Below the pieces are notes generated by a model. It was not told where the DNA came from and did no database searches. It saw nothing but the letters and a program-made list of their open reading frames with translations. Below are positions 11,241-20,699 of a DNA stretch of 64,000 nucleotides, piece by piece. The DNA comes from Spirochaetae bacterium HGW-Spirochaetae-3 (GTDB taxonomy: Bacteria > Spirochaetota > Spirochaetia > Treponematales > UBA12059): the NCBI GenBank assembly GCA_002839315.1, contig PGXV01000008.1:105707-169706 (forward strand), given 5' to 3'. Every line of letters begins with the position of its first letter. The first letter of the stretch is position 1. Made by a program: the position numbers and the translations under genes.

Positions 11241-12431
11241 ATGCCGAAGAAAATAGCGACTATCGTGCTTCTGGCCTGCGCGGCCTTTTCCTCGTACGGA
11301 GCCGATCTGTCGATCCCCTACCTGGCCCTGCTGACGAACGGCCGGCTCAACGCGGCCGGCGCCTACGAGCTGTCCACGCGAGTAGAGATAGACATGCTCG
11401 TCGAAGGCGGCTCGAAATTCGACGCGTGGTTCAAGCTTGGATTCAGGAGCGCGGCGATGGAGGAATACCTCAGCGCATCCGAATCGATGACCGGCCTTCC
11501 CGCCGGATATACCGCGGACGACGTCGCTTCGCTCGCTTCCCAACTCGAGGCGGCGACCGGGCTGTCGCTCCGGACCGTGGCGATCCAGGTCAACGAGCTC
11601 TTCGGCACGCCGCTGGAGCTCGCCACATTCGTCGGCCACCTCGACACCTTCTGTTCCGGCTCCGACTTCACGACGCTCTTCGGCGCCGGCGACTTCGCGA
11701 CCAAGTTCCGCGGCTACATGTACTATCCCGACGGTATCGGAGGCGATACGAGCAGGCGCTACGACGGCCTGCTCGATATCTACGGCACCGGCGTACGCCT
11801 GTCTCTCCCCATGGATACGATACGGCCCTACCTGTACGCGTACCAGGATTCCTGGTTGGGCGCCGGCCGCTACTCCCTCGACGCCCGCGTCCTCATCGAC
11901 TCCGAGCGCGTCAAGTTCGAGGCCTTCGCCGGAGCCTCGGCCCCCGTATCCGACGCGGGCGTCTACCGGGCCGGACTGCTCTTCTACTTCGACACCGGCG
12001 CCATAGGCGATTTCTACGCTCAGATCGGCGTGCCGCGCTGGGACCCGACCGAGGCGTTCCGGATGGACCTCGTCTACTTCATGTTCGAGCCGCGCGTCAA
12101 CTTCGAGACAGGGGAGCTGGTGCTGAGCCTGTTCTTCCACCCTGCGTGGTACCTGCAGGAGGAGACCGACGAATCGGGGGCCATGGAGTTCCGCTTCGAC
12201 CTGGGATTCGGCACGATAGAGGAAGGGAAGATACGCGGCGGCGTGGAAACGGAGCTCGCGTACAATCCCAACCTGTCCGCCGATACGCTGACCGTGGAGA
12301 CGGCCCCGTACATGCAGACGGTGAAGAACGGCGTACGGTGGGACCTCCGGCTCGCGCTCCGGGCGTTTCCGTTCCCGGATCCGTGGTATGGTATGTTCAT
12401 GCCTACCGTAGGCGTCTCGACCGCTTTCTAG
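11241..12431 (+). CDS. Secreted protein, probable outer-membrane beta-barrel, unknown function
   Basis: A 396-residue protein with a cleavable signal peptide (KKIATIVLLACAAFSSYGAD, cleavage near residue 20). The mature part has no Cys and is rich in alternating aromatic/polar strands (YRAGLLFYFDTGAIGDFYAQIG, WDLRLALRAFPFP) and ends in Phe (VGVSTAF), the usual signature of an outer-membrane barrel. No family was recognised. GGGAG lies 8 nt before the ATG. The next gene, also a secreted barrel-like protein, starts 19 nt downstream, so they are probably an operon. The upstream region is shared with the divergent cheA operon. Confidence 0.8.
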   Translation: MPKKIATIVLLACAAFSSYGADLSIPYLALLTNGRLNAAGAYELSTRVEIDMLVEGGSKFDAWFKLGFRSAAMEEYLSASESMTGLPAGYTADDVASLASQLEAATGLSLRTVAIQVNELFGTPLELATFVGHLDTFCSGSDFTTLFGAGDFATKFRGYMYYPDGIGGDTSRRYDGLLDIYGTGVRLSLPMDTIRPYLYAYQDSWLGAGRYSLDARVLIDSERVKFEAFAGASAPVSDAGVYRAGLLFYFDTGAIGDFYAQIGVPRWDPTEAFRMDLVYFMFEPRVNFETGELVLSLFFHPAWYLQEETDESGAMEFRFDLGFGTIEEGKIRGGVETELAYNPNLSADTLTVETAPYMQTVKNGVRWDLRLALRAFPFPDPWYGMFMPTVGVSTAF

Positions 12432-12450: not shown

Positions 12451-13374
12451 ATGACGAGTCTGATCAATCGCGCACGCGCGCTCGCCGTCTTCGCCTCGGC
12501 CGTAATCGCAGCCGCCGCGTCGGTAGCGCCCGCCGCGGCGTTCGACATAGAGGCCAGCGCGTACTTCGGCAACCTCGGGCTCCCCTGGGACGGCGAGACC
12601 GCGATGACGGACGCGGAGTTCCCCGCGGACGGCTGGCTGTACGGCGGCCGCGCCGCCTTCGTCCAGCGGCTGGGCGACGGATTCTCGCTCGTCGCCGAAT
12701 ACGAGACCGATCCCGTGCTGCGTAACATCGTCCGCGGCGTCATCACCTACAAGACGGGCATGGCGAGCATCAGCGCCGGCCCGATGGTAGGCGTGTTCAA
12801 CTCCGCCGGGCATGCGCTCAAGGCCGGTATCGATATAGGCTTCAGGCTGGAGGCGCCGGGCATCGCGTTCTTCTCGGCCGACGTGGAATCCTCTATGGGC
12901 GCCGGCCTCGTCACGGCGGGCGACTATTCCCAGGAAGCGTCGGAACTGTCCGCGGGCTGGTACGTATACAACGCCATATGCTCGGCCTCGCTGATTTCCA
13001 AGCGCTTCACCAGGATAATAGACGCCGGCGCGCTCGTCGACGCGTCGACCGATTACCTGTTCTCCGTCGACGTACACAAGAAGGGAACGCCGTACCGCGT
13101 GCTGACGGAGCTAGGCTACCGTACGATGACGAGGACCTACCCCGACGATACGATAGACGGCCTCGGCGCGGTAATTCTCGGGGCGGAGGTCAATGCGGAC
13201 GTCTCTCCGACTCTCACCGTGGTCGCCGGACTGGACTCCGGCGTCTACGTCTTCGGCCTCGAGGAGCTGTCCGGCCGCGGTCCCGCGTCAAGCTCGTTCC
13301 TGTTCAGCGCCAGCGTCGGCTTCGTGCTGCATCTTGGCGACAAGCCTACGGCCGAACCGCCGGCGCTGGAATAA
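12451..13374 (+). CDS. Secreted protein, probable outer-membrane beta-barrel, unknown function
   Basis: A 307-residue protein with an Ala-rich signal peptide cleaved near APAAAF (about residue 30). The mature part alternates short amphipathic strands and glycine turns (GVITYKTGMASISAGPMVGVF, LVAEYETDPVL, FSASVGFVLHLGD), consistent with a small barrel. A short tail after the last strand makes the barrel call less certain than for its neighbour. AAGGAG lies 7 nt upstream of the ATG. It follows the gene at 11241 by 19 nt and precedes hicA by 87 nt. No family was recognised. Confidence 0.75.
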   Translation: MTSLINRARALAVFASAVIAAAASVAPAAAFDIEASAYFGNLGLPWDGETAMTDAEFPADGWLYGGRAAFVQRLGDGFSLVAEYETDPVLRNIVRGVITYKTGMASISAGPMVGVFNSAGHALKAGIDIGFRLEAPGIAFFSADVESSMGAGLVTAGDYSQEASELSAGWYVYNAICSASLISKRFTRIIDAGALVDASTDYLFSVDVHKKGTPYRVLTELGYRTMTRTYPDDTIDGLGAVILGAEVNADVSPTLTVVAGLDSGVYVFGLEELSGRGPASSSFLFSASVGFVLHLGDKPTAEPPALE

Positions 13375-13461: not shown

Positions 13462-13710
13462 ATGATCGATCGCTCGATCTTGGATAGCCCGACTAATGTG
13501 CGTTTCGACGACTTGGTAACGCTCTGTTCGAGCTACTTTGGAGAGCCCAGGATCGCAGGGAGCCATCACATTTTCAAGATGCCGTGGCCCGGCGATCCCC
13601 GTATAAATTTGCAGCGTGACGGAGCTAAGGCGAAGCTATACCAGGTTCGCCAAGTACAAAGAGCGATCGATAGGATGGGGGCAGAAAATGCTAAAGCGCG
13701 ACACCAATAA
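13462..13710 (+). CDS. hicA: HicA family toxin (mRNA interferase)
   Basis: An 82-residue HicA-like protein. HicA toxins are small double-stranded-RNA-binding-fold ribonucleases that cut mRNA until bound by HicB. The catalytic His is in the family motif G-S-H-H (residues 33-36, GSHHIFKMPWPGDPRINLQ). The C-terminal AKLYQVRQVQRAI is also typical. It is slightly longer at the N-terminus than most HicA proteins. The GC content drops relative to neighbouring genes, fitting horizontal acquisition. It overlaps hicB by 23 nt, in toxin-first order. It has its own promoter ending 6 nt upstream. Confidence 0.87.
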   Translation: MIDRSILDSPTNVRFDDLVTLCSSYFGEPRIAGSHHIFKMPWPGDPRINLQRDGAKAKLYQVRQVQRAIDRMGAENAKARHQ

Positions 13711-14020
13711 ATATACGTTCCGTGAAGAATGGTCCGAGGAAGACGGCGTCTACATAGCGCGTTGCCTCGAATTCCCATCTCTGTCCGCTCACGGAGACTC
13801 TCCTGAATCCGCCCTTAAAGAGCTACGTGCCGTTATAGAGCTAGTAGTCGACGACATGGCTAAGGCCGGTGAATGCATACCGGAGCCGTTAAGCGTCCGC
13901 CCTTATAGCGGGAAACTGGTATTACGCATTCCTAAAGCGGTGCACAGGAGTATCTCTATACAAGCCGCCGAGGAAGGCGTTTCACTCAATCAGTACTTGG
14001 TCTCGAAGCTGGCATACTAG
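13688..14020 (+). CDS. hicB: HicB family antitoxin
   Basis: A 110-residue antitoxin. The N-terminal HicB fold has FREEWSEEDGVYIARCLEFPSLSAHGDSPESALKELR, the standard pattern of this family. The C-terminal ribbon-helix-helix domain has VLRIPKAVHRSISIQAAEEGVSLNQYLVSKLAY and would bind the operator for autoregulation. The ATG at 13688 is chosen because the family N-terminus starts there; GGGGG lies 6-9 nt upstream, inside hicA. It is downstream of and overlapping its toxin. Confidence 0.9.
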   Translation: MLKRDTNKYTFREEWSEEDGVYIARCLEFPSLSAHGDSPESALKELRAVIELVVDDMAKAGECIPEPLSVRPYSGKLVLRIPKAVHRSISIQAAEEGVSLNQYLVSKLAY

Positions 14021-14050: not shown

Positions 14051-14174
14051 GCCGCGCAAGGATGCGCGGCCACAGAACGGCCTGTCCGCAGGACAGGTAC
14101 ATCATGGATGCCAAGCGCGCCAAGGATGGCGCGCCTAAAAAATGCCGCCCTAAAGGGCGGCACGGCATGGATGC
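14051..14174. repeat. Cluster of GGATG-containing hairpins
   Basis: Four to five palindromes lie between hicB and tRNA-Lys. They are GCCGCGC-AAGGAT-GCGCGGC (14051-14070), CCTGTCC-GCA-GGACAGG (14081-14097), GCGCGCC-AAGGAT-GGCGCGC (14115-14134), the tRNA-Lys terminator hairpin (14143-14162), and GGCATGGATGCC (about 14164-14175). Two have the same AAGGAT loop with different, compensating stems. CATGGATGCC occurs twice (14104-14112 region and 14166-14175). Confidence 0.8.
14137..14162 (-). terminator. Rho-independent terminator of tRNA-Lys
   Basis: On the minus strand a hairpin TGCCGCCC-TTTA-GGGCGGCA is followed by TTTTTT (14137-14142), 15 nt after the tRNA 3' end. Confidence 0.85.
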
Positions 14175-14321: not shown

Positions 14322-15458
14322 TCAGTACTTGAAGTCAAACGCGACGAGCAGGTTGAACACCGGCCGCGACCCCGGATCCAGCCCCAGCTCCTCGCCGTAC
14401 ATCGCCAGCGAGAACGTGAACGCCTCCAGGTCTATCCCGAAGCCGGCCGTCGGTAGCGCGTCCTTGACGCCCGCGCGCAGCGCCAGGATATCCAGCAGGG
14501 TCGCCTCGAAGCCCACGCGCACGTTTAGTATCGGGTTGCGGGGTATAACCGAGAACAGGTCGAGGATGTCGACGTAATCGAACAGCACGAGCAGGTCGGC
14601 GCCGAGGCGGTCCAGCAGCTCGAAGCGCGGCGAGTACGCCAGGCCCAGTGACAGGTCGGCCGGTACGACGGCGTAGGCGGACGTCCCGGAACCGGGATCG
14701 GACGCGAAGGCCCCGTAGTCGGCGTAGCTCGTCACCATAGCGGGCGAGTAGGCGTCGCGGGCGACGAGCCCGAAGGACAGGCTTTCGTCGAACGTCCAGA
14801 TGGCGCCGACGTCGAAGCCTATGCCCGATGTCATCGTGAACGGGCTACCGAGCAGGGCGGTCGGATCCGAGGCAAGGTCGACGACCTCGGACAGCGACTT
14901 GGTATCCTCTATGGCGGCGCGGATAAAGCCCTTGGGCATCACGCCGACGTCGAGTGTCTGGCGCTCTCCGAACGAGAACCGGTAGGCGTAGCCGCCGGCG
15001 AGCAGGAATTCCTCCGATATCGAATACGCGACCGACATAAGCGAGGCCGCGTTGAGCGTCGTCACGGTACGGTTGTACAGCCCGAAGCCCAGCCCCTTGC
15101 CCGCGTAGCCGAACGCGAGCGGCCCGAGGATGTCCGCCTGGAGGTACAGCCGTCCGTTGTCGTCGAAGAGCGACGTCAGGTCGGCGAGCGGATCCCCTCC
15201 GGATACCAGCATGCTGACGATATCGAATACCGGTCCCGCGGGGTTGAAGACCAGCGCCGACGCGCTGAACTCCGTTTCGTCGCTTATGAAGCCGGCGGGG
15301 TTCTCGAAGATGGCGTCGACCCCCGAGACGCTCGCCGCGTGCGGGCCCCCTAGCGCCGCCATCCTCGCGGAAGGCAGGGAGAACCGGTCAACGGTCTGGG
15401 CGGAGGCGCCGATCGATACCAACGCGAGCGCGGCGAGTACGGCAACGGTTCTTTTCAT
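14322..15458 (-). CDS. UPF0164/FadL-like outer-membrane barrel, second copy
   Basis: A 378-residue protein with a signal peptide cleaved near GASAQT. After it comes ARMAALGGPHAASVSGVDAIFENPAGF, the conserved opening of UPF0164 (FadL/PorV-like) outer-membrane proteins of Treponema. GKGLGFGL and the closing segment DLEAFTFSLAMYGEELGLDPGSRP are shared with the paralogue at 16263-17408. The C-terminus is a beta-strand (LLVAFDFKY). Such barrels are expected to move hydrophobic or small substrates across the outer membrane; the substrate here is unknown. It is the last gene of a four-gene operon, starting 28 nt after its lipoprotein partner, with GAGG 6 nt before the ATG. Confidence 0.85.
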   Translation of the reverse strand: MKRTVAVLAALALVSIGASAQTVDRFSLPSARMAALGGPHAASVSGVDAIFENPAGFISDETEFSASALVFNPAGPVFDIVSMLVSGGDPLADLTSLFDDNGRLYLQADILGPLAFGYAGKGLGFGLYNRTVTTLNAASLMSVAYSISEEFLLAGGYAYRFSFGERQTLDVGVMPKGFIRAAIEDTKSLSEVVDLASDPTALLGSPFTMTSGIGFDVGAIWTFDESLSFGLVARDAYSPAMVTSYADYGAFASDPGSGTSAYAVVPADLSLGLAYSPRFELLDRLGADLLVLFDYVDILDLFSVIPRNPILNVRVGFEATLLDILALRAGVKDALPTAGFGIDLEAFTFSLAMYGEELGLDPGSRPVFNLLVAFDFKY

Positions 15459-15486
15459 GCGTGACCTCGCGGTTTTTTATTCATCG

Positions 15487-16209
15487 TCATTCGAACGACA
15501 TTCCGCTCAGGAGCTGGCCGAATATGCTGGTGGTGCCGCTCGCGGTCTCGGCGGCCTGCGCCAGGGCCAGGAGCGCTATGGCGCCCGCGATGGTAGCGTC
15601 ATCGACCGCCGCCGGATTGGTTCCGGTATCCAACAGGATGGACAGGTCGGCGTACGAGGTAACCGCTACCCCGGCGTCATTAAAGGCGTCTACAGCCAGG
15701 GTTAGCGCGGCGACGTACAGCTGGTCGGGGGCCAAGCCCGACGGCGCGGCGGCGTCGTCCGAGACGAGGAGCAGAGCGGCGGTCTCGCCCGGCGTCAACG
15801 ATATGGCCATCAACGAGGCGATCGCCGAGTCTACTTGTTCCGGGGAAAGCACATCCAAGCCCGATGTGCCTAACTCCTCTACGATGGAGAAGATCGCCGG
15901 GCTCGCGTCGGACGACAGCACGACGGCGGTCACGAGCGCAGTCGCGGCCTCGTCGTAGGAAGCGGTGCCCGGAGTGCCCGCGGACACCGCGGCGGAGAGC
16001 GGCGACACCAGCGCGGCGGCGACGTCCGCGTCGCCCCCCGCGAGCAGCTCGACGGCGTCGTCCATGGAAATATCCGAGGGGATGGTATAGGAGTCCCTGG
16101 CGAGGGCCTTGGCCAGGGAACCTGTAAAGAATTGCTGGCACGACGCCAGCGACACGAGGCCGGCCAGGGCCGCGGCGCCCGCCGCTATACGGAATATTCG
16201 TACGTTCAT
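15487..16209 (-). CDS. Helical lipoprotein paired with UPF0164 barrel, second copy
   Basis: A 240-residue predicted lipoprotein. The signal MNVRIFRIAAGAAALAGLVSLASC ends in a lipobox with Cys24. The mature protein is acidic, almost entirely Ala/Leu/Asp/Ser-rich amphipathic helix, ending IFGQLLSGMSFE. No family was recognised. The ATG at 16209 is chosen over an in-frame start at 16263, because the signal peptide begins here and AAGGAG lies 9 nt upstream. It lies between the two barrel genes. Overall size, helical character and a short hydrophobic C-terminal end match the lipoprotein at 17424-18209, although residue identity looks low. Confidence 0.8.
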   Translation of the reverse strand: MNVRIFRIAAGAAALAGLVSLASCQQFFTGSLAKALARDSYTIPSDISMDDAVELLAGGDADVAAALVSPLSAAVSAGTPGTASYDEAATALVTAVVLSSDASPAIFSIVEELGTSGLDVLSPEQVDSAIASLMAISLTPGETAALLLVSDDAAAPSGLAPDQLYVAALTLAVDAFNDAGVAVTSYADLSILLDTGTNPAAVDDATIAGAIALLALAQAAETASGTTSIFGQLLSGMSFE

Positions 16210-16262
16210 AGTCGCCGCTCCTTGCGCATCATAATAAGTATCGGCGCGGCGACCGGTTTTCA

Positions 16263-17408
16263 TCAGAACCGGATGGCCACTTCCGCCGATATTCCCGTCC
16301 TCGGGTCGTCGCCGGGCCTCGGGCCCAGTTCCTCGGTGAATACCGCCACGTTGAATTCGAAGGCGAGCAGGTCGAGTCCCGCGCCCATGCTTATCCAGCC
16401 CTTGTTGAGGCCGGCGCGCAGGGCGAACAGGCCGCCGAGCATCTCGGCCTCGGCGCCGACGTGGAACAGGTTCCAGACCGATAGATTATCCTGGATCACC
16501 TTCACGGGGTCCTGTATCTCGGCTATCACCGTCACGTCGATCACGGGCTTGAGCGACTCGGGTATCGGCGAGACGCTCGCGCCTATCGTGACGTTGGGGT
16601 ACACGGGGTACTCCACCTGGTTCCCAGTCGGCAGGTCGCCGCTCGTCAGCACGTCGCCTATGGTCGATTCCGTATAGGTCTGCCTCGTCGATATGTCGCG
16701 GACCGCGACGCCGACGGAGAACATCTTGCCGAGGTCCACCCTGGCGCCGAGGTCCACCGCGAGCCCGAAGCCGACGTTTACATCGGTAGCCATGAGATCG
16801 GACGTGCCATCCATCATACCGAGAAGGTCGCTGCCGTCTATATCGCCGGTCATGCGCAGGTACGGCCGTACATCGCCGCCGACGTTGATGGTCAGCTTGC
16901 CCAGGTGCAATGGCACGCCTATGCCTACGACGCCGGCTATCTGGCCGTCGATCGTGCCGGTCGCGCCGAGCAGGTTGTTGCCGCTGACGTACACCTCCCC
17001 CGAGCCTATCAGGCCGAGGCCGAGCCCCTTGCCTATCCAGCCCGTCCCGACCGACATGCCCATGCCGAAGCCGTTGTCTACTATCAGGTCGTTGAGCGGA
17101 TCTATCATAGCCGTCGAGTCGCCGCTCGACATGGCCGAGGCGATCTCGGAGAACCTGGCGATATTTTCTGTCGTCGGGCTTACATAGGCCCACGGTGTCA
17201 TCGACAGTAGCGTCAGCTCTTTTTCCTTCTGCGCGAAGGTAGCCGGATTGCCGTAGAAGCTCTGATAGCCCTCGCTCATGGCTACGAAGGCGCCGCCCAT
17301 CGCCATCGTCCTGGCGTCCTTAGGCGCTACCGCGTCGAGCCTGGACTGGGCGAACAGCGCGCCGCCCGACGCGAGGAGGCACAGCGTAATGGTAAGTATG
17401 CGTTTCAT
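16263..17408 (-). CDS. UPF0164/FadL-like outer-membrane barrel, first copy
   Basis: A 381-residue secreted barrel. The signal peptide MKRILTITLCLLASGGALFAQ is cleaved near residue 21. The family opening is ARTMAMGGAFVAMSEGYQSFYGNPATF, followed by GKGLGLGLIGSGEVYV. The end is LLAFEFNVAVFTEELGPRPGDDP with a final strand finishing in Phe (VAIRF), the outer-membrane sorting residue. It is paralogous to the product of 14322-15458, sharing the N-terminal GG...NPA block, GKGLGxGL and the EELG-x-x-PG motif. AGGAGG lies 7 nt before the ATG, and it starts 15 nt after the first lipoprotein gene. Confidence 0.87.
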   Translation of the reverse strand: MKRILTITLCLLASGGALFAQSRLDAVAPKDARTMAMGGAFVAMSEGYQSFYGNPATFAQKEKELTLLSMTPWAYVSPTTENIARFSEIASAMSSGDSTAMIDPLNDLIVDNGFGMGMSVGTGWIGKGLGLGLIGSGEVYVSGNNLLGATGTIDGQIAGVVGIGVPLHLGKLTINVGGDVRPYLRMTGDIDGSDLLGMMDGTSDLMATDVNVGFGLAVDLGARVDLGKMFSVGVAVRDISTRQTYTESTIGDVLTSGDLPTGNQVEYPVYPNVTIGASVSPIPESLKPVIDVTVIAEIQDPVKVIQDNLSVWNLFHVGAEAEMLGGLFALRAGLNKGWISMGAGLDLLAFEFNVAVFTEELGPRPGDDPRTGISAEVAIRF

Positions 17409-17423
17409 CGTGTCCTCCTTGTC

Positions 17424-18209
17424 CTAGAATGATATGCCGGCGGCGGTGAGGATGTTGCCCAAATAATTAGCTGGATCCGTTCCGCTATCCATAATCGGGA
17501 AAGAGAACTGAGCACTAGTAGGTTCTGCGGCTAATGGATTTGTTAGTAAATCATATAGATATTCGCCCGTAGTACCAGATACAGGATTGACCGCTCCTAT
17601 CATCGCAGCTATCAGCGCGTTCTGAGCAATTTCGCCAGCGTTTATATCAGCGTCGCTGGCATAACCGTCTAGCCCGACCGCTTCCCCAAGATCGCGGTAT
17701 ACACCGTCAGCGCTAACGAGCGCATCGATCATCGCGACGAAAGCAACCTCGTTGATACTTCCGTCGGCGCTCATCACGGAATCAGGCACGAGACTGCGTA
17801 TCGTATCCTCAAGCGCGCTTGCGTCGGGAGTCGTGCCGTTTATCAGATCGGTTACTAGACTACTGACATTGTTTATCAGGTCCCAGGCGGGCGTCGTCTG
17901 CAGCTCGATATTGGCGGCGAGCACCGCGAGCTCCTGATCAGCCGCGCTATCGATCGAGGCACCGATGGCGTTATCTATCTTCGTGAGGGTCTCGGCCTTC
18001 AGCGCGGCGTCGTCGGCGAGGGTATCGTAGAACGAGTCGCTGTCGGACAGCTCGACGAGGGTCGCGGCGTCGGCGTCCGCAATTTCCTTGGCGTCGACGG
18101 CGGCGAGCGACGCGAACATATTGAAGTTGAGCATCGCGTCCAGGGCGTCGCAACCGGTCATCGTAATGGCAATGGCCACGGCCAGGGCGATCATCGTCGT
18201 CCGTCTCAT
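17424..18209 (-). CDS. Helical lipoprotein paired with UPF0164 barrel, first copy
   Basis: A 261-residue predicted lipoprotein: MRRTTMIALAVAIAITMTGC gives a lipobox with Cys20. The mature part is acidic and helical (AKEIADADAATLVELSDSDSFYDTLADD), ending ANYLGNILTAAGISF. No family was recognised. It is first in the four-gene operon lipoprotein, barrel, lipoprotein, barrel. The ATG at 18209 has GAGGAGG 6 nt upstream. The 3' half of the gene has more A/T-ending codons than its neighbours, a possible sign of transfer or relaxed selection. Confidence 0.8.
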   Translation of the reverse strand: MRRTTMIALAVAIAITMTGCDALDAMLNFNMFASLAAVDAKEIADADAATLVELSDSDSFYDTLADDAALKAETLTKIDNAIGASIDSAADQELAVLAANIELQTTPAWDLINNVSSLVTDLINGTTPDASALEDTIRSLVPDSVMSADGSINEVAFVAMIDALVSADGVYRDLGEAVGLDGYASDADINAGEIAQNALIAAMIGAVNPVSGTTGEYLYDLLTNPLAAEPTSAQFSFPIMDSGTDPANYLGNILTAAGISF

Positions 18210-18252
18210 CGATTCCTCCTCGCCGTCTTTAGGGGGACGGTTCTCTAGTATA

Positions 18253-18280
18253 AGTGTAGCACTCGGCTCGAGTAAATCAA
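18253..18280 (-). promoter_or_regulatory. Candidate promoter of the lipoprotein-barrel operon
   Basis: On the minus strand, TTGATT (18275-18280), 16 nt and TACACT (18253-18258) lie about 45 nt upstream of the first start codon. The region is much more AT-rich than the surroundings. An overlapping TATACT at 18247-18252 is an alternative -10. Confidence 0.45.
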
Positions 18281-18315: not shown

Positions 18316-19668
18316 TTATGAGATAAACGAAGCGACGAGATCCGGGCTGGATTCTGAAGGCCGCGCGGTTATGGCCGACAGGACGGAGCACGAGCAGGCG
18401 CCCCGGAATCCAGGAGGCGCCTCGAGCAGCCTCAACTTCATATAATCCGCCGAGGTCGCCAGCACGGGGCCGACGGAGCCGTGGTCCTCGACGACTGCGT
18501 CGACGACGCGGCCGACGCGGCGGGACGCGAAGGCGGCGCGGCCGCGCTCGGCGATGGCCTGGACGATAGCGGCCCGTTCGACGGCGACGCGTTCGGGGAC
18601 GCGGGGCTTCATGTCCCATGCGCGGGTACCGGGCCGCGGGCTGTAGGTGAAGGCGTGCACCCAGGCCGGCTCGAGCCGTTCCAGGAGGTCCACGGTGCCG
18701 CGGAAGTCGTCGTCGCCCTCCCCGGGGAAGCCGAGGATGATGTCGGCCCCGATGAACGGGTCGTCCCTGACGGCGCGGACGGCCTCGGCGGCCCGCAGCA
18801 CGGCGTCCCGGCCGTAGCGGCGGCCCATCGCCGCCAGCACGCGGTCTGAGCCGGACTGGATAGACAGGTGCAGGTGGGGCCGTACGCGCGGCAGGGCGAA
18901 GGCGCGGACGAAGGCCTCGTCGACGCGGTCGGGCTCGTACGACGACACGCGGAAGCCCATGCTCGACGTGCCGGCGACGAGGAGCCCGAGGAGCCCGGGC
19001 AGGTCGACGCCGCCGTATCGGTATTGGGACAGGTTGACGCCGGTGAGCACGGCCTCGGGCACGCCGGCCGATTCCAGAGCGGCCGCGCGGCGCAGCGCCT
19101 CGTTGGGCGGCAGGCTGACGGAACGGCCGCGCGCGAGGCAGACCCGGCAATAGGCGCAGCGGTTGTCGCAGCCGTCCTGTATCTTGAGCTGGACGCGCGA
19201 ATGGAAGCGGGCGTCGCCGGCTACGAAGCCGAAAGGATCGGGCTCGCGGCCCATGGCCCGGGCGGCCAGGCGACGGGACTCGTCGAGGAGGTCGAGGCCC
19301 TCGAGCCCGGCGGCGACGAGGCCCGCCGCCATCGCGCGGACGCCGTCCTTGCGGGAGCCGGGCACGACGACGGCGCGCGGCGCCACGGCCGCTACGGCTT
19401 CCGGCTCCAGCTCGGCGTAGCAGCCGGTCACGACGGCGACGGCATCGGGATTGAGCCTGAGCGCCAGGCGCATCTCCCGGCGCGCCTTCTGCTCGGCCTT
19501 GCTCGTGACGGTGCAGGTATTGAAGACGACGACGTCGGCGGGCTCGCCCGAGCCGACGACCAAGGCGCCGGCGGCGGCGAAGGACGCGGCCAACGATTCG
19601 GTCTCGGCCTGGTTGAGCTTGCATCCGAAGGTGCGGAACGATACGCGGAGGGACTGGGGGGACGGCAT
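18316..19668 (-). CDS. mtaB: tRNA threonylcarbamoyladenosine methylthiotransferase
   Basis: A 450-residue methylthiotransferase of the MiaB family, adding a methylthio group to t6A37 of tRNA. The N-terminal UPF0004 domain has FRTFGCKLNQAETE, FNTCTVTSKAE and TGCYAELEPEAV, whose three Cys hold one cluster. The radical SAM domain has QDGCDNRCAYCRVCLARG, a C-x3-C-x2-C motif, and the C-terminal part carries the TRAM-like end. GCKLNQ and the CRV-x-x-ARG sequence favour MtaB over MiaB or RimO. The ATG at 19668 is chosen because the domain begins there; the longer frame would run into the TPR gene. It starts 10 nt after that gene's stop. It sits in the same genome as TsaC (33335-34315), which starts t6A synthesis. 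Confidence 0.92.
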   Translation of the reverse strand: MPSPQSLRVSFRTFGCKLNQAETESLAASFAAAGALVVGSGEPADVVVFNTCTVTSKAEQKARREMRLALRLNPDAVAVVTGCYAELEPEAVAAVAPRAVVVPGSRKDGVRAMAAGLVAAGLEGLDLLDESRRLAARAMGREPDPFGFVAGDARFHSRVQLKIQDGCDNRCAYCRVCLARGRSVSLPPNEALRRAAALESAGVPEAVLTGVNLSQYRYGGVDLPGLLGLLVAGTSSMGFRVSSYEPDRVDEAFVRAFALPRVRPHLHLSIQSGSDRVLAAMGRRYGRDAVLRAAEAVRAVRDDPFIGADIILGFPGEGDDDFRGTVDLLERLEPAWVHAFTYSPRPGTRAWDMKPRVPERVAVERAAIVQAIAERGRAAFASRRVGRVVDAVVEDHGSVGPVLATSADYMKLRLLEAPPGFRGACSCSVLSAITARPSESSPDLVASFIS

Positions 19669-19678
19669 AGGATGCGCT

Positions 19679-20311
19679 CTAGCGCCTCGTCCGCGCGACG
19701 ACGCGCTCCTTGCCCCTGACCGCGTCGACGAGGCCGGGGTTGATGGCGAGCGCCGCGTCGTAAGCCGCGACGGCGTTGGACCAGTCCGACGCCCGCTCGC
19801 GTACATAGCCGAGCCTCGTCCACCAATAGGCGTTGTTCGGTTCGTACTGCAGGGCGGTGCGCATGGCTATATCCGCGTGCTGGAGCCGCTCGAGCCTCAG
19901 GTACGTCTCGCCCGTCATGTAGTAGACGGTACCGATGCGCGCGCCGTCGGGCAGCAGATTGACGTAGTCCTTGAATCGCTCGATCGCCTGCGCGTTCTTG
20001 CCGAGGTAGAAGGCGGCCTCGCCGAGGGCCTCGACTATGCGGGGATCCTTGCGCACGCTCGTATACGCCTTGCTGCCGTACAGCTCCGCGTCGGCGTAGC
20101 GCTCGAGCGAGAGGAGGCTCCATACGAGCACTACGTACGACTCGATATTAGCGGGGTCGGCGGAAATTTCGGCGAGGCAGGTGGTACGGGATTCCTCATA
20201 GCGTCCCTCGCGGTACATCTTGAGGGCGTCGGGCCTGGACTGGGCTCCGGCCACCGCGGCCGAAAGCGCGAAGGCGGCGATAGCGGCGGCGGCGCGGCGA
20301 GGACGGGACAT
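19679..20311 (-). CDS. Secreted tetratricopeptide-repeat protein
   Basis: A protein of about 210 residues with a signal peptide (RAAAAIAAFALSAAVAGAQ) and four to five TPR units: ALKMYREGRYEESRTTC, VVLVWSLLSLERYADAELYGSKAY, ALGEAAFYLGKNAQAIERFKDYV, YMTGETYLRLERLQHADIAMRTAL and LGYVRERASDWSNAVAAYDAAL. TPRs mediate protein contacts; the partner is unknown. The start at 20311 fits the signal peptide, while an in-frame ATG at 20344 would add 11 residues and overlap the bactofilin stop. Neither has a clear Shine-Dalgarno. It lies between bactofilin and mtaB in the same operon. Confidence 0.82.
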   Translation of the reverse strand: MSRPRRAAAAIAAFALSAAVAGAQSRPDALKMYREGRYEESRTTCLAEISADPANIESYVVLVWSLLSLERYADAELYGSKAYTSVRKDPRIVEALGEAAFYLGKNAQAIERFKDYVNLLPDGARIGTVYYMTGETYLRLERLQHADIAMRTALQYEPNNAYWWTRLGYVRERASDWSNAVAAYDAALAINPGLVDAVRGKERVVARTRR

Positions 20312-20327
20312 AGTTACGGCGCGCGCC

Positions 20328-20699
20328 TTAGTTACGGGTCGCATCGGCGGGACCGATCATCGAGCATATGCCGTTAAAGCGGCAGCCCGGTTCCATCGTC
20401 ACCTCGGCCGCCGTGACGTCGCCGTCGACGCGGCAGGTCGCGAACAGCTCGACGCGCCCGGTGGCCGAGATGTCGCCCTTGAGCGTGCCCCTGACGGTCA
20501 CGTTGCGGGCCTTGACGTCGGCCTCGACGACGGCATGCTCGTCGATATGGAGGTCGCTTTCGGTGACGATCGATCCGGACACGCGACCCTTGATCATCAT
20601 GGGCTCCTTGAAGACCATGGCGCCCGAGAATTCCACGTCCGCGGCGAGAATCGTATCGAGGGTATCTTCATCCACTACGCTGAGATGTACATCGGTCAT
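20328..20699 (-). CDS. Bactofilin family cytoskeletal protein
   Basis: A 123-residue bactofilin (DUF583). The core is a right-handed beta-helix made of short repeats such as GRVSGSIVTESDLHIDEHAVVEADV, ARNVTVRGTLKGDISATGRVELFATCRVDGDV and AAEVTMEPGCRFNG. Bactofilins polymerise without nucleotide and organise cell-wall or envelope proteins, in some spirochaetes affecting helical shape. It begins 57 nt after rsmA's stop. On the minus strand TATCAT ends 8 nt before its ATG, so it may also be transcribed separately as a nearly leaderless message. Confidence 0.92.
   Translation of the reverse strand: MTDVHLSVVDEDTLDTILAADVEFSGAMVFKEPMMIKGRVSGSIVTESDLHIDEHAVVEADVKARNVTVRGTLKGDISATGRVELFATCRVDGDVTAAEVTMEPGCRFNGICSMIGPADATRN

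Follow-up and report, generated by a model that had tools for sequence, protein, structure and literature searches.

Barrels of the FadL/TodX family (PF03349) are channels for long-chain fatty acids and hydrocarbons, and FadL-type barrels generally move hydrophobic molecules; we know of no lipoprotein partner of FadL. Outer-membrane barrels with a dedicated lipoprotein partner are exemplified by LptD-LptE and SusC-SusD, although, as a comparison from general knowledge, these involve other barrel families and other lipoprotein folds than the locus described here. A further combination is found in the type IX secretion system, where a PorV-like barrel and the TPR lipoprotein PorW act in one system (PMC8754138). 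Among spirochetes, fatty-acid acquisition by Treponema pallidum is a long-standing question, and three FadLs of this species have helical C-terminal domains bearing TPR motifs, which have been proposed to pass cargo to a transporter (PMC8407342).

The window analysed here is a stretch of 64,000 nucleotides from Spirochaetae bacterium HGW-Spirochaetae-3. Four of its genes were initially read as lipoprotein, barrel, lipoprotein and barrel, and all four are present on the minus strand as follows.

18247-18276, minus strand: promoter-like site upstream of L1, TTTACT-18-TATACT, 9/12 positions against the consensus (a sequence match only)
17424-18209, minus strand: L1, lipoprotein of 261 aa with lipobox ...MTG/C, all-helical, partner of B1
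18152-17427, minus strand: mature chain of L1, from Cys20 (by the lipobox)
16263-17408, minus strand: B1, FadL/PorV-like putative outer-membrane barrel of 381 aa with C-terminal F (by homology to B2 and the PorV_fam match)
15487-16209, minus strand: L2, lipoprotein of 240 aa with lipobox ...LAS/C, all-helical, partner of B2
16140-15490, minus strand: mature chain of L2, from Cys24 (by the lipobox)
14322-15458, minus strand: B2, FadL/PorV-like putative outer-membrane barrel of 378 aa with C-terminal Y (by homology to B1 and the NPA motif)
14142-14163, minus strand: terminator-like hairpin downstream of tRNA-Lys, 9-bp stem with T-rich tail (a sequence feature only)

The genes are transcribed in the order L1, B1, L2, B2, separated by 15, 53 and 28 nt, and a tRNA-Lys gene follows B2. 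A single transcript or operon is plausible because of these short gaps, the promoter-like site before L1 and the tRNA-Lys with its terminator-like hairpin after B2. In a plasmid search, the tRNA was the sole match of the locus DNA. Upstream of the module, genes for a bactofilin, a TPR protein and an MtaB-type radical SAM protein follow each other (18316-20699, minus strand) in an order that several families of the taxonomic order share and that is also kept where the lipoprotein has been lost. Next to cheA lie neighbouring genes for two secreted proteins with no match in Pfam or NCBIfam (11241-12431 and 12451-13374, plus strand); their composition, together with the C-terminal F of the first, suggests a second tandem barrel pair. 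The small gene pair at 13462-14020 (plus strand) has HicB as its second member; the first resembles a HicA toxin on visual inspection and has no Pfam match.

Both barrels had been labelled UPF0164 in the initial annotation, but neither B1 nor B2 matches PF03687 at E < 1 in Pfam, and the single PF03687 match of the genome lies elsewhere (C2:163288-164148). Profile comparison makes UPF0164 a distant relative of B1 (probability 96%, E = 1.7e-9). In T. pallidum, the UPF0164 proteins (TP0856, TP0858, TP0859, TP0865 and TP0548) resemble B1 and B2 as distantly homologous barrels with an N-terminal NPA-type motif and tandem genes. They differ in the remainder of their architecture: most UPF0164 loci examined (7 loci, L117-L123) have a C-terminal TPR-like tail fused to the barrel, and the proposed search for lipoprotein genes upstream of UPF0164 genes found them at 0 of 12 loci. 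In B1 and B2 the situation is the opposite, as no C-terminal helical or TPR tail occurs in either and both stop at the final barrel strand, B1 in F and B2 in Y. We therefore rejected UPF0164 membership on the PF03687 result, the tail and the partnerless UPF0164 loci, and regard the TPR-like tail as an alternative way of putting a helical domain on a barrel.

PorV/PorQ is the best NCBIfam family for B1, and 29 of 31 B1 members match it at E < 0.01. The PorV_fam match of B1 (E = 1e-10) lies mainly in the N-terminal hatch stretch and stays below the curated cut-off; against the 90 bits set for NF033709, B1 reaches 41.8 bits and B2 30 bits. The weak matches of B2, to TraF_2 in Pfam and to PorV_fam in NCBIfam, both fall below cut-off, and no significant sequence match to the barrels was found among solved structures, the best being PorV at E = 0.033. 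With FadL/TodX, the two barrels share the hatch NPA motif after the signal peptide, an OMP-like C-terminal aromatic residue and the length. The differences are the lipoprotein partners of this locus and Toluene_X (PF03349) scores far below the cut-off of 29.7 bits (10.6 bits for B2, no match for B1). B1 and B2 are thus best described as putative FadL/PorV-like barrels, assigned to neither family.

The two barrels are homologous end to end (26% identity, E = 1e-14 in BLASTP; profile-profile E = 3e-39 over 369 columns), and on this similarity we consider them true paralogues. All three motifs noticed at the outset (GG...NPA, GKGLG and EELG..PG) correspond to conserved columns in both barrel families. 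An NPA-type motif in the N-terminal hatch, a feature of the FadL superfamily, is found in B1 and B2, and across full-length proteins NPA or NAA is present in 29 of 33 B1, 6 of 6 second B1-type and 22 of 22 B2 sequences. In the phylogenetic tree, B1 and B2 form separate clades (support 0.78 for B1 and 0.996 for B2), each spanning several families; hence, the duplication predates the split of those families. The suggestion of a tandem duplication is accordingly retained for the lipoprotein-barrel module as such, but not as a recent local event, as the B1 and B2 clades are old.

The lipoproteins L1 and L2 are of similar size and helical character with little sequence in common, as first described, and show no pairwise similarity. 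Their supposedly shared ending turned out to be weak (...AAGISF in L1 and ...LLSGMSFE in L2), and C-terminal conservation differs between the two families. AlphaFold2 gave confident helical models for both, with twelve helices in L1 (pLDDT 91.8, pTM 0.87) and eleven in L2 (pLDDT 86.1, pTM 0.83). Comparing the families as profiles gave a score of 39.7, while the highest of 60 block-shuffled controls was 29.2 and reversed profiles scored 14-16; with the residues around the lipid cysteine taken out, the score dropped to shuffle level. L1 and L2 are likely distantly related, with a signal that comes mostly from the motif beside the lipid cysteine, and we did not keep them as one clear family for that reason. 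Conservation over the 14 residues that follow the lipid site is roughly double that of the remaining lipoprotein (0.41 for L1 and 0.51 for L2 without the Cys, against 0.26 and 0.24), which makes this stretch the best candidate for contact with the barrel; in L2, a conserved CQQFFT.SLA...AR segment lies after the lipid cysteine. The lipoprotein bodies have a mean pair identity of 24-26%.

A Foldseek comparison of the L1 and L2 models with solved structures gave nothing at E < 0.001. The best VIA-align Z scores, 7.4 and 6.4, belong to middling TPR-like or 14-3-3-like matches, and values up to 7.4 are of the size that common helical arrangements give. Among the structure matches listed for L1 and L2, TatT-type T-components do not occur, and no TPR repeats were found by Pfam in either. 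Two other candidates were set aside: L1 and L2 show no profile similarity to the UPF0164 TPR tail and are thus not kept as its detached form, and the PDB sequence matches between L2 and designed helical repeats seem to reflect composition.

The association of each lipoprotein with its own barrel type is maintained among 59 relatives. Members of the L1 family occur in 29 of these, and 26 of their 30 hits are located directly before B1, the other four being at contig ends or truncated. The L2 family is present in 31 relatives with 33 hits, of which 31 directly precede B2 (29 by coordinates and two by open frames) and two are contig-end fragments. Neither L1 nor L2 was ever seen beside the other barrel type in these relatives. 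The complete order L1-B1-L2-B2 recurs in the family of the window and in members of two other families, while some relatives possess L1-B1 alone or L2-B2 alone; recurrence of the four-gene order in many relatives indicates that it is not due to chance. Fisher tests on presence gave p values of 1e-9 and 1e-12, with shared ancestry ignored. Mirror-tree analysis yielded positive partial correlations that are not type-specific, L1-B2 correlating as well as L1-B1. One B2 gene (L049, 8104-9331) is split over two reading frames, possibly by a sequencing error.

The idea of an obligate lipoprotein partner survives in part: the partner is dedicated, but it is not obligate, as a lipoprotein is missing at five B1 loci and beside the B2 or B2-like genes of four genomes. 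Three genomes with B2 but no lipoprotein have chromosomes of 2.8-2.9 Mb, and G045 has three B2-like genes. Since such barrels exist and the lipoproteins are found by a barrel wherever the contig allows, the lipoprotein is the more dependent of the two, and it is not indispensable to the barrel. In six genomes of one family (L069, L070, L072, L075, L076 and L077), a second B1-type barrel directly follows L1-B1; these genomes have no L2-B2, and the second barrel, lacking its own lipoprotein gene, may use the one lipoprotein jointly with the first.

The pairing extends deeply into the phylum. B1-like barrels were detected in 60 of 149 genomes sampled, and 28 loci were chosen on barrel score alone, 24 of them with intact upstream sequence. 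A lipoprotein gene stands directly before the barrel in 20 of these 24; applied to other genes, the same rule gives 13 of 118. Pfam TPR models match about half of the 20 deep-branching partner lipoproteins. All but one of the 20, and all L1, carry an N-x-F type motif no more than twelve residues from the lipid cysteine (43/44 against 8/47 for the lipobox-proximal motif, which was chosen after the data had been seen). A profile of the deep-branching partners (A7), with matches from tether to body at E < 1e-8, identified 22 loci outside its build set; 18 run on into a barrel (15 by barrel matches just downstream and three by barrel frames read from DNA) and four end at a contig edge. Several of the genomes found in this way hold two such modules, and both keep the lipoprotein-barrel order. 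By sequence, L1 and L2 connect to the TPR-bearing partners only weakly and through intermediate groups, and the link rests on position, the lipobox-proximal motif and helical make-up. At one locus (L159, 1723-4400) the lipoprotein gene is broken and a barrel frame follows, where a sequencing error is possible. In L156, L162, L163 and L164, a conserved gene with the motif ETDIKP..FEEA.IKSV is found upstream of the module, next to a repeat protein.

TPR-like scaffolds bind partners, and the lipoprotein is probably the built-in partner of a channel. In the arrangement that we propose, each copy would consist of a FadL/PorV-type beta-barrel in the outer membrane, with an N-terminal hatch containing the NPA motif, and of a dedicated lipoprotein from the gene immediately preceding, the soluble part of which would be a helical scaffold, with TPR repeats in deep-branching relatives. 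On the periplasmic side, this helical body would act as a subunit of the barrel, in physical contact with it and perhaps docked by the conserved stretch at the lipid cysteine. It might receive hydrophobic or poorly soluble cargo or link the barrel to a carrier, so that both the direction of transport and the hand-over of cargo belong to the proposal; the sequence itself points to no particular cargo. The roles initially suggested for the lipoprotein, a plug, an assembly factor or a periplasmic substrate acceptor, would each be compatible with the data. A helical domain on such barrels recurs, as seen from the UPF0164 TPR-like tails and the helical domains of the T. pallidum FadLs (PMC8407342), and by analogy a separate lipid-anchored helical protein could do much the same as the fused domains. 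Taken as a whole, the reading of a two-gene outer-membrane unit in two anciently diverged copies, with the lipoprotein as periplasmic subunit, seems to us evenly poised between acceptance and doubt.

Some of the same evidence would suit a lipoprotein that serves as an assembly or stability factor in the folding or insertion of the barrel, in the manner of LptE-LptD and with no role in transport. In every pair its gene leads, right in front of the barrel gene, it is specific to the barrel type, and its body tolerates large divergence. However, several barrels manage without a lipoprotein, the second B1-type barrel of the six genomes mentioned above has no separate lipoprotein gene, and a binding platform would account no less well for the TPR repeats of the distant partners; we regard such a factor as unlikely, if still worth serious consideration.

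It is rather improbable that the pair forms a secretion or surface-display unit, in which a PorV-like barrel would carry exported proteins and a TPR-type lipoprotein would guide them, as with PorV and PorW of the type IX system. PorV/PorQ is the one family that the barrels resemble, and PorW is a TPR-containing, periplasm-facing outer-membrane lipoprotein of the type IX system (PMC8754138). On the other hand, the likeness to PorV_fam is below cut-off and confined mainly to the hatch, and the genome has no match to SprA (TIGR04189), although the same search was silent in control genomes too. PorW is also very large, with over 1100 residues, and binds Sov and PorN, whereas L1 and L2 are small and their genes directly adjoin those of the barrels.

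That adjacency is merely inherited gene order without physical partnership is quite improbable. The old and conserved order of bactofilin, TPR protein, MtaB and module can explain part of it by co-inheritance, but the pair is found in other contexts across the phylum, adjacency is type-specific, and two-module genomes keep the lipoprotein-barrel order in both modules.

Returning to the proposed two-gene unit, our literature search, which left subscription journals mostly outside its reach, found no description of this lipoprotein-barrel pairing, and the pairing is wider than initially guessed. We suggest, tentatively but as a reading that may well prove correct, that a two-component outer-membrane system has gone unrecognised in many Spirochaetota, in which a FadL/PorV-like barrel and a dedicated TPR-derived lipoprotein subunit, often in two specialised copies, carry cargo between outer membrane and periplasm. 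How spirochetes take up fatty acids and poorly soluble nutrients through their unusual outer membrane is an open point. A barrel whose lipoprotein partner is genetically fixed, present in several free-living or environmental members, offers a testable handle on this passage of nutrients, and the pairing indicates where the periplasmic receiver might be sought. Spirochetal FadL-like barrels may need to be studied together with their partner and not alone.
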